A stretch of 64,000 nucleotides of DNA from Viridibacillus arenosi (lineage in GTDB: Bacteria > Bacillota > Bacilli > Bacillales_A > Planococcaceae): the NCBI RefSeq assembly GCF_001955655.1, contig NZ_MSPW01000005.1, positions 186,001 through 250,000 on the forward strand, read 5' to 3'. Numbering within the stretch: the stretch's first letter is position 1; each line of letters opens with the position of its first letter. Shown one piece after another: positions 14,964 through 17,892 of the stretch. A program made the translations under genes and the position numbers. The notes under the pieces are model-generated. The model saw nothing but the letters and a program-made list of their open reading frames with translations, was not told the DNA's origin and searched no databases.

Positions 14964-15270
14964 TTATCATCACCATCCACCCTAACTAATGTCATATAAT
15001 TACATTCAATTATATAAAACACATGACAACTTGTATATTATTCAAGAAAAGATTACATTTGGAAAACGATTAAACAAAATGGATTCTCTACATTTATCAC
15101 AAATAAAACGAAGATAACGGCAGCTTATTTTCTTCTATCCCCCCTAAATTTCCTGGGCATTCTATGTAAGCATCCAATTTTACTTTTACTATAGTGATAT
15201 TAGAACTAAATTGATTAACTATTTTGATAATTTATTCTAAATATCTCTTTATAGAATATAACGGATTATA
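14964..15270. other. Intergenic stretch upstream of the subtilisin locus
   Basis: About 300 bases between the divergent Nudix and subtilisin genes. It is AT-rich, and I see no gene or clear hairpin. Possible promoter elements for the plus strand lie near 15220-15262 (TTGATA and TATAAC), but the spacing is not convincing. Confidence 0.3.
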
Positions 15271-15391
15271 AAGGAGGAATTCAAAGGGACAAATTAAACA
15301 TTGCCTAGGTAATATTGGCGGAGACATTGCTTTATTCATTATGATTGGCCAAACGTCGGGTGCATTTCTTTTGTACAAAAAACTAATATGA
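15271..15391 (+). other. Ribosome site and short open frame lacking a start codon
   Basis: AAGGAGG at 15271-15277 is a full-strength ribosome site, yet no ATG, GTG or TTG in a useful frame follows at normal spacing. One frame stays open from about 15284 to a TGA at 15389-15391 and encodes a hydrophobic peptide of about 35 residues (containing CLGNIGGDIALFIMIGQTSG). Its TGA overlaps the ATG at 15388 as ATGA, the signature of translational coupling. It could be a small gene that lost its start or one using a rare start codon. Confidence 0.3.
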
Positions 15392-15405
15392 AAAGGATGG
15401 ATAAT

Positions 15406-16323
15406 ATGCCGAAAATCGAATTAGGTAAATACAAAATTTTATCATTTTATAGTGATTTAGAGGTTGTTCCTCCTGGAGTAGATCTCATCAAAGCGAGAGA
15501 AGTTTGGACAGAGGCTTCCGAAGGTAGTGGAGTCGTTGTAGCCATTTTGGATACGGGTATTGCCACACATCACCCTGATTTAACAGACGCCATTATCGGT
15601 GGATATAATTTTACAGATGATGATAATGGTGAGCCAAGCATCTTTGAAGATCATAATGGCCATGGTACACACGTTGCTGGAATTATAGGAGCTAGAAATA
15701 ATGGAGTGGGTGTTATAGGTGTAGCACCTAAATGTAACTTACTCATCCTAAAAGTGTTAGATAAAAGAGGGGCTGGTTCTTATGATCAATTAATCGAAGC
15801 TTTGGATTATGCAATGAAGTGGACAGGTCCTAATGGCGAGAAAGTAAGCGTGATTAATATGTCGCTAGGAGGTCCTACACATACAAATGAATTATATAAA
15901 ACGATAAAAAATGTATATGATGCAGGTATTATTATCGTTGCTGCAGCTGGCAACGGCGGTGATGGTGATTCTGAAACATACGAAATTTCATATCCTGCTT
16001 TTTATGAAGAAACACTTTCGATAGGGTCTGTAAATAACGATTTAGTCCCTTCTGTCTTTTCTCATACTAATCTAAACCTAAAATTCATGGCACCTGGTGA
16101 AGATGTTTTATCGACTCATTTAAATGGGCAATATGTGAAATTAACCGGGACTTCAATGGCAGCTCCACATGCTTCTGGTTCAGTTGCACTAGTTTTAAAT
16201 CTCGTACAAAAATATGATCAAATGCTACTCCCATCACAAATTGAAAGATATTTTAGTAGTCATTCGAGAAAAATAGATTTCCCTATCAGCCAAGTGGGTA
16301 ATGGCTTTATCCAATTAAAATAG
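15406..16323 (+). CDS. Intracellular subtilisin-like serine protease (S8, IspA type)
   Basis: A 305-residue subtilase without signal peptide. Counting from the ATG at 15406, catalytic residues are Asp49 (LDTGIA), His86 (GHGTHVAG) and Ser250 (GTSMAAPH), with oxyanion Asn183 (AAGN). Overall it follows B. subtilis IspA, but the inhibitory LIPY motif of the short propeptide is replaced by ILSFY and the protein is a little shorter. Start 15406 has AAAAGGATGG upstream; an alternative ATG at 15388 overlaps the preceding open frame. YvrJ follows 11 bases later, and a split sigma factor lies downstream, which suggests dedicated control. Confidence 0.85.
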   Translation: MPKIELGKYKILSFYSDLEVVPPGVDLIKAREVWTEASEGSGVVVAILDTGIATHHPDLTDAIIGGYNFTDDDNGEPSIFEDHNGHGTHVAGIIGARNNGVGVIGVAPKCNLLILKVLDKRGAGSYDQLIEALDYAMKWTGPNGEKVSVINMSLGGPTHTNELYKTIKNVYDAGIIIVAAAGNGGDGDSETYEISYPAFYEETLSIGSVNNDLVPSVFSHTNLNLKFMAPGEDVLSTHLNGQYVKLTGTSMAAPHASGSVALVLNLVQKYDQMLLPSQIERYFSSHSRKIDFPISQVGNGFIQLK

Positions 16324-16334
16324 GAGGGGTTAGT

Positions 16335-16493
16335 ATGGGAACCGATGCGGATTGGGTTTATTTAATCTCAAATTTTGGATTTCCAATTGTAATGACAATA
16401 TACCTTTTAATACGTTTTGAAAAAAAACTAGAACGATTAACAGTTGGATTAGACTATCTCCGTGAAGTAATTGTTCAGAAGAAAAAAGGGTGA
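16335..16493 (+). CDS. yvrJ: YvrJ-family small membrane protein
   Basis: A 52-residue protein encoded right after the subtilisin gene; TAGGAGGGG overlaps the subtilisin stop and serves as its ribosome site. It has one transmembrane segment (about 8-26) with the family pattern SNFGFPIVMTIYLLIRFEKKLE, then a charged helix. YvrJ proteins are very short Bacillales proteins; in B. subtilis yvrJ is in the SigO regulon next to sigO and rsoA. The same company here, with a SigO-like and an RsoA-like gene about 450 bases downstream, supports the identification. Molecular role unknown. Confidence 0.8.
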   Translation: MGTDADWVYLISNFGFPIVMTIYLLIRFEKKLERLTVGLDYLREVIVQKKKG

Positions 16494-16540
16494 ATTAAAC
16501 AATCGAATCTCTTGTCTTAACTAATCTGGCCATGATTATG

Positions 16541-16629
16541 GAAAGGGTCATAATATATGAAAACAACATCGACGAATACTAGAAAATTCATAATGTAGAG
16601 GTGCAAAATAGATAAATTATGACCCTTTC
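16541..16629. repeat. Fourteen-base inverted repeat between yvrJ and the sigma gene
   Basis: GAAAGGGTCATAAT (16541-16554) is repeated exactly in inverted form as ATTATGACCCTTTC (16616-16629), with 61 bases between. The second arm is followed by ATTGTAATTTAG, which is not a good terminator tail. The interior contains a 13-codon frame from an ATG at 16558. The rest of 16494-16947 is AT-rich without another gene. It may be a hairpin or a pair of protein sites. Confidence 0.5.
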
Positions 16630-16947
16630 ATTGTAATTTAGTAGTTAAAATTTACTAATTATAAATTTTCTTATAAAAAGCGGGAAGTCCCATTACAAAA
16701 AAACGTTATTTATTTTTAATAATGATATGTGTTTTTTACCAAAAATGATAAAAAAGATACATTTTCATTTCAAATATGTGTGTTATCGTTAAAATTAACA
16801 TAATTACTAAATTAACCCATAAACTAGTAATATAAGCGATAATTCAAACACCACTTTTGCTCCCTTAAAAATTCTAAAATTCATAATACTATTTCTCGAT
16901 CAATTTGTTTTATATTTCTCTTTCACATGAAAGGAGGAGTGTAGCTG

Positions 16948-17538
16948 ATGACAGTTAGAGAAGAAGAATTTTTCAAGAAATATGATGCTATGATGAAACA
17001 ACCTATTATGAAAGAATTCTTAAAAAGTGGTGATAATCAACATATTTTTCATAAGGCAATCAATGACATGGATAAAGAAAGTATCGAACAACTAAATGCA
17101 TCCTTTCGCAGATACTATAAAAACATTATTCTTATTTCTTATATCTCAAAAACCATCCACTTTTCTGCAATTGAATTTGATAAAAAATTACGTAGCTATT
17201 ATAAAAAAAACCTTCCTATTCCCGGTGTAACTGAAGAATCCATCACCCAGGAAAAACACCTATTAATGGACCTTCTAATGTCGACGGATGAAGATACGAC
17301 TTTTATCAACTTTCAACGAAAACAAAAAAACATTAGTGACTATATTGCTAATGCTCATCTAAACTCTAAGATGAAATTGCTATCAAATAAGCAATTACGT
17401 ATTTTGGAATTAATCTACATTCATAATTTTAATAACAAACAAATCGCAAAAATATTAAACGAATCAGAACAAACTATTTCATATAACCATCAAGCTGCTT
17501 TAAAAAAATTAAGAAATGCATGTAAACAGAAAAAATAA
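16948..17538 (+). CDS. SigO-like sigma factor subunit (YvrI type, region 4)
   Basis: A 196-residue protein. The C-terminal third (about 143-192) is a sigma-70 region 4: LSNKQLRILELIYIHNFNNK, then a helix-turn-helix IAKILNESEQTISYNHQAALKKLR. The N-terminal two thirds have no recognisable region 2 but share the pattern and length of B. subtilis SigO (YvrI), which recognises the -35 element and needs the separate RsoA protein for core binding. A matching region-2-like gene follows 130 bases downstream. AAAGGAGGAG precedes the ATG. The likely role is to direct polymerase to a few local promoters, plausibly those of the subtilisin and yvrJ. Confidence 0.75.
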   Translation: MTVREEEFFKKYDAMMKQPIMKEFLKSGDNQHIFHKAINDMDKESIEQLNASFRRYYKNIILISYISKTIHFSAIEFDKKLRSYYKKNLPIPGVTEESITQEKHLLMDLLMSTDEDTTFINFQRKQKNISDYIANAHLNSKMKLLSNKQLRILELIYIHNFNNKQIAKILNESEQTISYNHQAALKKLRNACKQKK

Positions 17539-17670
17539 AATGAGGAATTACTTGTTCAATTCACGTTTGTTATAGTGATAATCTACTTAAAATCGCAATC
17601 ATTTTTCACGTAAAATATTATGTTTTGTTCTTATACCCTTTATTTAGATTTCAGAAAGAAATGGGGAAAC

Positions 17671-17892
17671 ATGATGGAAAACCAAATCTTGCATGAAGTA
17701 GAAAACAAAGACCTAGAACGCATACTAGAAATCTTTAGACCTGCTATTAAGAAAAGTTTGATTAACACTCGTATGCAAGAGCGAGAAGATTTGGAACAAG
17801 AGATCAGTATGAAAATCCTAGAGAAATTAAGTTATTTGCAAGAAATAAGAACACCGGATTTTTTTGAGTTTATCGAATATCATGTAGATTAA
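17671..17892 (+). CDS. RsoA-like co-sigma subunit (YvrHa type, region 2)
   Basis: A 73-residue protein, close to the 79 of B. subtilis RsoA. It has the region-2-like core-binding helix REDLEQEISMKILEKL, preceded by LERILEIFRPAIKKSL. No region 4 is present, so it complements the upstream gene: together they make one sigma factor from two polypeptides. The start is taken at the tandem ATGs (17671/17674) after TGGGGA; a longer frame to 17620 adds 17 residues with no ribosome site. The pairing is inferred from size, motif and adjacency. Confidence 0.7.
   Translation: MMENQILHEVENKDLERILEIFRPAIKKSLINTRMQEREDLEQEISMKILEKLSYLQEIRTPDFFEFIEYHVD

Follow-up and report, generated by a model that had tools for sequence, protein, structure and literature searches.

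Sigma factors that naturally consist of two polypeptides are rare; SigO-RsoA is one, and it is known mainly from its link to the oxalate decarboxylase of Bacillus subtilis. There the pair (YvrI-YvrHa) is described as turning on oxdC-yvrL and yvrJ as well as its own operon (PMC8103513), and as active only when both halves are present (PMC10028694). In a different setting, a sigma factor, a one-helix holin, an amidase and a leaderless cargo are put forward in PMC9527704 as a proposed release system. Here we describe a 64,000-nucleotide stretch of the Viridibacillus arenosi genome (contig NZ_MSPW01000005.1, positions 186,001 to 250,000; hereafter the window), whose + strand carries, in this order, a subtilase gene, yvrJ and the genes of a SigO-like and an RsoA-like protein. 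The genome comprises 4.43 Mb in 44 contigs. The four genes probably constitute a SigO-RsoA-type split-sigma module that switches on the subtilase-yvrJ operon. A split sigma factor with a protease output is supported by the recurrence of the neighbourhood in relatives, by a promoter motif shared among the sigO, yvrJ and cargo genes of those relatives, and by a variant of that motif before the subtilase of the window. The same core stands beside leaderless hydrolases in many genera; together with a testable promoter motif, this points to a regulon and a function that can now be sought.

The split sigma factor and its neighbours

The subtilase gene (15406..16323) most likely starts at the ATG at 15406, giving a protein of 305 amino acids; an in-frame ATG is also present at 15388. 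The product scores 181.7 bits against PF00082, contains all of the triad motifs DTG, GHGTH and GTSMA, and has no leader visible by eye. Its closest solved relative by sequence is an intracellular subtilisin (6f9m, E 9.3e-85). Only 11 bases, with an AGGAGG-like site among them, separate the subtilase stop from the start of yvrJ (16335..16493), and the two genes resemble an operon. In the 52-residue YvrJ a single hydrophobic segment precedes a charged one; the protein scores 53.7 bits (cut-off 29.5) against PF12841, a Pfam family of unknown function. The initial annotation had placed an IspA-like protease and a YvrJ gene upstream of the sigma pair, and the two Pfam matches bear this out.

The SigO-like protein (16948..17538; 196 amino acids) carries sigma region 4 at residues 143-190 (PF04545, 30.7 bits, cut-off 24.1). 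Its AlphaFold model (mean pLDDT 79.3, pTM 0.40) shows a confident N-terminal helical part (residues 1-87), a low-confidence linker and region 4 at about 134-196, which superimposes on WhiG (7lq4) with Z 10.3 and rmsd 1.4 over 63 residues. The protein had been annotated as a region-4-only sigma factor; the coordinates and region 4 hold, whereas the N-terminal helical part is at odds with the word “only”. None of ten N-terminal segments matched the Pfam region 2 models. Foldseek aligned the whole model with full sigma factors (E 0.002-0.006), though at an rmsd of some 22-24, and a second aligner probed the N-terminal part little. That this part is a remnant of region 2.3/2.4 is a lead only.

The RsoA-like protein (17671..17892; 73 amino acids) would be the region-2-like partner. 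Its two best matches are NF041489 (“sigma-O factor regulator RsoA”) and PRK14082, each under its cut-off, and it is the single match of PRK14082 in the genome; PF12645 (HTH_16) matches at 27.4 bits, above the cut-off of 22. No solved relative was found by sequence up to E 0.1, and a fold search gave weak helical matches only, including SigC region 2 (2o7g; Z 3.0, rmsd 3.3 over 51). The SigO-like protein shares 96% identity with its V. arvi DSM 16317 counterpart and 74% with that of V. soli. Judged by sequence, both sigma halves appear to be divergent counterparts of B. subtilis SigO and RsoA.

Recurrence of the neighbourhood and lineages of the subtilase

A SigO search at E 1e-6 over 261 genomes of the family returned 98 matches in 79 genomes, two of which (in G042) are pieces of one gene. 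For fetching, 39 loci were chosen, comprising the top-scoring ones and a spread of weaker ones. The fetched stretches contain an RsoA-like open reading frame in 38 cases, a YvrJ frame in 35, a full-length subtilase in 12 and a subtilase fragment in two. A hand count gave at least 19 subtilases with a SigO match no more than 5 kb away; under one is expected, on an estimate assuming 1-3 such genes per 3-5 Mb genome. A YvrJ-centred set was drawn from the best 80 of 234 loci in a YvrJ alignment scan; L149, with no recognised yvrJ frame, was dropped and 79 were tallied. Either sigO or rsoA is present in 62 of these, and both in 59. Within 7 kb of yvrJ, loci with a sigma part compare with those lacking one as follows: subtilase 20/62 vs 1/17, phospholipase A2 (PLA2)-like protein 13/62 vs 1/17, glutaredoxin 19/62 vs 2/17, a small protein of our family c4 13/62 vs 1/17, and amidase_2 5/62 vs 2/17. 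A subtilase, PLA2-like protein or amidase_2 is found at 27 of the 62.

The initial annotation had proposed comparative gene order as a check. The same-strand order subtilase-yvrJ-sigO-rsoA is kept in the congeners V. arvi and V. soli and, beyond Viridibacillus, was seen in Paenisporosarcina only; other genera that have these four genes arrange them differently. Cargo-bearing genera include Anoxybacillus, Priestia, Exiguobacterium, Lysinibacillus, Neobacillus, Rummeliibacillus, Melghiribacillus, Salimicrobium and Mesobacillus. The Bacillus glycinifermentans locus holds a PLA2-like protein and glutaredoxin, and among the other proteins encoded at such loci are an amidase_3 and a glycoside-hydrolase-like protein that has peptidoglycan-binding domains. 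PLA2-like proteins were assigned from the motif CCxxHDxCY, which we take to be the PLA2 signature, together with Pfam scores under the cut-off. In a hydropathy scan most cargo proteins had no strong N-terminal hydrophobic segment. The protease is one of several cargo types and is thus not a single private output; the dedicated protease regulon that had been suggested keeps the support of neighbourhood, motif and variant site in this wider form.

We note two further features of these loci. The c4 protein (about 60 amino acids, cysteine-bearing, KCxCxxRKTQxF) stands alone beside yvrJ or the subtilase (L045:5539-5718, L153:6051-6233 and others) and also forms the C-terminal tail of several SigO-linked subtilases; it has no convincing family match. 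Beside the SigO modules of L053, L056, L066, L130, L141, L142, L153 and L162 lie genes for a protein of ~130 amino acids with a hydrophobic N-terminus and a membrane protein of ~680 amino acids, joined by an ABC ATPase in some loci where the stretch reaches far enough. This set looks like a bacteriocin-type cluster. A suspected resemblance to lactococcin-972-like bacteriocins gave no match, either with Pfam (the small proteins of L053 and L056, the large one of L153) or with NCBIfam (both proteins of L162).

Intracellular subtilisins (ISPs) carry a LIPY/F motif, of the form [LVI]-[IFLV]-P-[YFH], in an N-terminal extension, and this motif participates in their inhibition (PMC6220982). The window subtilase has the S8 domain, the triad and no visible leader, and carries LGKY at the position of LIPY/F; the altered inhibitory motif of the initial annotation is therefore real. 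LIPY/F occurs in 22 of 23 unlinked subtilases and in all five linked ones from Paenisporosarcina, and in none of the 24 other distinct linked sequences. Because of this distribution and its own LGKY we file the window protease as ISP-related rather than as a canonical ISP. A tree was built from 33 linked and 23 unlinked subtilases, 56 in all; on it the two labels need two changes, against a mean of 18 for shuffled labels (0/500 as low). The linked sequences form two large groups, whose relation is unsure because of long branches, and a Paenisporosarcina group nested within the IspA clade, which is a separate recruitment. Paenisporosarcina aside, the sampled SigO-linked subtilases thus fall apart from housekeeping IspA. 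Linked rows came from SigO or YvrJ neighbourhoods, and one of them, L156, sits next to yvrJ near the end of a contig, where no SigO is visible; L042, L043, L046, L048 and L056 (copies of named loci) and L216 (no open frame) were left out. For the unlinked rows, 24 high-scoring unlinked matches were picked by hand and 23 retained after the loss of one; the tree is thus no evidence that the linked lineages are confined to such neighbourhoods. In a family-wide subtilase search, the nine top-scoring among the matches listed are all SigO-linked by hand comparison.

A promoter motif shared across genera

A bipartite motif, GGTTGTWA / TTTTGATWA followed after about 20 bases by TYCTTTA, was learned from 100 sigO/yvrJ upstream regions. 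It was then applied to the 150 bases upstream of held-out cargo genes. Of 52 cargo regions, 25 scored above 12 bits (subtilases 9/24), as did 19 of 306 regions before other genes at these loci (Mann-Whitney p 5e-12); several of these 19 control genes, for example four in L157, may themselves be regulon members. Strong sites lie at the sigO genes of many relatives, and in B. glycinifermentans both sigO and yvrJ have similar TTTTGATT-type sites of about 12 bits. For the window, the motif was re-estimated without Viridibacillus sequences, starting from the cargo-test matrix. With a flexible spacer, the candidate subtilase promoter (TTTTGATAA ... TCTCTTTATA, 15222..15256, + strand) ranks 4 of 127,926 positions at 14.6 bits, the best + strand site scoring 15.4. 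The site is kept in V. arvi and largely in V. soli. A second candidate site of SigO type (16894..16927, + strand) precedes sigO, with a similar one in V. arvi.

In the split-sigma interpretation, a signal would increase SigO and RsoA. The SigO-like protein, supplying region 4, and the region-2-like RsoA-like protein would together bring RNA polymerase to promoters with the motif, including 15222-15256, and the subtilase-yvrJ operon would thereby be transcribed, with weak self-activation possible at 16894. The protease would probably be produced only on demand. As it has no canonical self-lock, tight transcription may replace that lock. YvrJ might then help the protease to act at or beyond the membrane. 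We infer that the pair is active and needs both halves, as in B. subtilis, and that it acts at these promoters in this strain.

Several observations weigh against this interpretation. The SigO-like protein matches general sigma models only (TIGR02937 gives 41.2 bits, with a cut-off of 42.9). The region-2-type partner had been annotated with the right coordinates and the RsoA model and PRK14082 are its best matches, but the scores (NF041489, 58.6 bits, cut-off 100; PRK14082, 74.5, cut-off 86) stay under the cut-offs. The Viridibacillus subtilases were misses in the cargo test, with -3.2 bits for the window, 5.8 for V. arvi and 3.7 for V. soli; the window gene was missed because its site is farther than 150 bases upstream. 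With a fixed spacer that site (at 15221) drops to rank 64 of 127,934; it carries TTTTGATAA where the motif has GGTTGTAA, and equally high scores occur elsewhere in the window. The sigO site of the window is weak (rank 164 of 127,934 with the fixed and 209 of 127,926 with the flexible spacer). The linked subtilase of Paenisporosarcina is an IspA of canonical type with LIPY, and the promoter motif is missing before it (L057 -1.9, L058 3.3, L182 -4.0 and L192 0.3 bits) while yvrJ has a motif site of its own, so adjacency there may not mean co-regulation. At 35 of the 62 SigO-bearing YvrJ loci there is no subtilase, PLA2-like protein or amidase_2 within 7 kb, some stretches being short, and several tallies count related strains separately. 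An unseeded search of the training set put a LexA-like palindrome, AGAACATATGTTC, first and the GGTTG...TCTCTTT motif fifth of 12. For this reason the promoter motif was seeded with enriched words, and the cargo-gene test is the evidence for it.

The statement that no oxdC is present proved correct for the locus; a bicupin oxalate decarboxylase gene (572.7 bits, cut-off 254.2) lies on another contig (G000:C33:155148-156242, L246). SigO-type sites reach at most 7.4 bits within the 400 bases upstream of its longest reading frame and 9.4 on the oxdC strand of a 4-kb stretch, so the oxdC of this genome is without a good SigO-type site upstream.

Between the subtilase promoter and the subtilase start lies an open frame (15270-15390) with a good ribosome site on its 5′ side. 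It has no start codon at its head and terminates early in V. soli; position 15271 is thus not supportable as a gene start, and the frame could be a decayed small gene or a leader. As a relic of a second yvrJ it was rejected (1.1 bits). The 454-base gap between yvrJ and sigO holds a 14-base inverted repeat with a long loop (16541..16629, + strand; GAAAGGGTCATAAT), the arms of which begin at 16541 and 16616, the right arm being present also in V. arvi. The fold of 16530-16645 has a z-score of -3.54, with 0/200 shuffles equally stable. An Rfam search of the repeat gave no match and a terminator scan around it no terminator-like site; a transcript end or an RNA element is possible.

YvrJ, the fate of the protease and related systems

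Holin genes sit directly before endolysin genes, as yvrJ does before amidase genes in some cases. Among 81 yvrJ genes the next gene (gap <250 bases) encodes an amidase_2 in three cases and an amidase_3-like protein in six, Pfam confirming the family for L133, L160 and L190 only. Small holins have one hydrophobic segment and then a charged segment (PMC9527704), a layout that YvrJ shares. These points suggest an extension of the split-sigma interpretation in which YvrJ acts as a pore of holin type or as a translocator, and leaderless hydrolases (subtilase, PLA2-like proteins, amidases) are both made and released under the control of the split sigma factor. Such release could serve altruistic lysis or competition, and would possibly reproduce the layout of UviA-UviB-bacteriocin and TcdR-TcdE from unrelated parts. 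We regard it as the leading functional idea, though one held tentatively and at somewhat less than even chances. The cargo proteins, mostly without a strong N-terminal hydrophobic segment, fit this idea, as does the published proposal of a sigma factor, holin, amidase and leaderless cargo acting together. On the other side, membership of YvrJ in the BhlA/UviB holin family (PF10960) is not supported, hhalign giving a probability of 0.9% and E 0.058 over 14 columns from shallow alignments, and at seven of the nine loci with yvrJ directly 5′ of an amidase neither SigO nor RsoA is in view. YvrJ also has wider roles, since it matches in 253 of the 261 genomes and a second YvrJ of this genome belongs to a DUF1659-DUF2922-YvrJ operon (L062:4352-5033, on G000:C33). 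In several Syntrophomonadaceae records an amidase_3-like gene comes next after YvrJ, and no SigO is in view.

Control of sigO in relatives bears on the same idea. The LexA box is given as CGAAC(n)4GTTCG (PMC4551915), and the palindrome GAACATATGTTC contains its core. LexA-type boxes lie at -100 to +45 of 32 of 58 sigO genes, where 0.58 are expected, a point in favour of release; CGAACNNNNGTTT-type boxes lie at the lexA genes in 12 of 12 genomes checked. The sigO of the window has no LexA box nearby, a point against release, and the V. arenosi genome has no perfect CGAACNNNNGTTCG, its own lexA nevertheless having CGAACNNNNGTTT-type boxes. A repressor other than LexA with a similar site is possible. 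A still broader proposal is that SigO-RsoA-YvrJ is a widespread release module of Bacilli, in which a split sigma factor, under LexA-type control in many species, drives holin-like YvrJ and exchangeable leaderless hydrolases. It would be an unrelated counterpart of UviA-UviB/TcdR-TcdE, with the oxdC of B. subtilis as one cargo among many; taken as a whole, this proposal is a shade more speculative than the release idea it builds on.

The initial annotation had instead seen a regulon that turns on a cytoplasmic protease. In that case the pair would serve protein turnover under acid or stationary stress, with YvrJ incidental or an anchor. ISPs are indeed intracellular with roles in protein turnover (PMC6220982), and the protease has no visible leader. 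The sampled SigO-linked subtilases are, however, separate from the IspA lineage, and they alternate with amidases and PLA2-like proteins, families whose substrates are walls and membranes. A cargo set that is mostly leaderless and accompanied by a membrane protein with one helix is more suggestive of enzyme release; it is therefore doubtful that a cytoplasmic protease is the functional end point, and we consider this alternative unlikely. Most improbable is that only chance or shared mobility has brought subtilase and sigma pair together, without any regulatory connection, an idea that can draw on the long gap before sigO, the Paenisporosarcina case and the weak sigO site of the window, and that is countered by recurrence across genera in differing orders and orientations and by the shared promoter motif. 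An anti-phage role was tried and rejected, PADLOC giving only a generic subtilase model, partial IetS matches and weak helix-turn-helix matches.

We therefore return to the split-sigma module acting on the subtilase-yvrJ operon. The split sigma factor itself is already known from B. subtilis. As far as our literature search reached, four findings are new: the cargo consists of leaderless hydrolases, the subtilases form distinct lineages, a promoter motif is shared across genera, and a LexA-type box lies at sigO in many relatives. They offer a hypothesis for YvrJ and a possible new route for leaderless protein release.

Three known systems frame the locus. With B. subtilis SigO-RsoA it has in common separate region-4 and region-2-like proteins, adjacent genes and yvrJ close by; in V. 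arenosi a subtilase, not oxdC, is the neighbouring cargo, the sequences are divergent and RsoA falls under the equivalog cut-off. The intracellular subtilisins (IspA; solved as 6f9m, 2x8j and 2wv7) resemble the window protease in sequence family, triad motifs, lack of a visible leader and length, and differ from it in LIPY/F for LGKY, in lineage and in the link to SigO-RsoA. The uvi genes are UV-induced, and the LexA-type box of many SigO relatives may be likened to that induction. UviA-UviB-Bcn5 and TcdR-TcdE, as presented in PMC9527704, share with the locus a dedicated sigma factor, a small membrane protein, leaderless cargo and, in some relatives, amidases nearby; here the sigma factor is split in two, YvrJ has no detectable BhlA homology and the cargo consists of enzymes.

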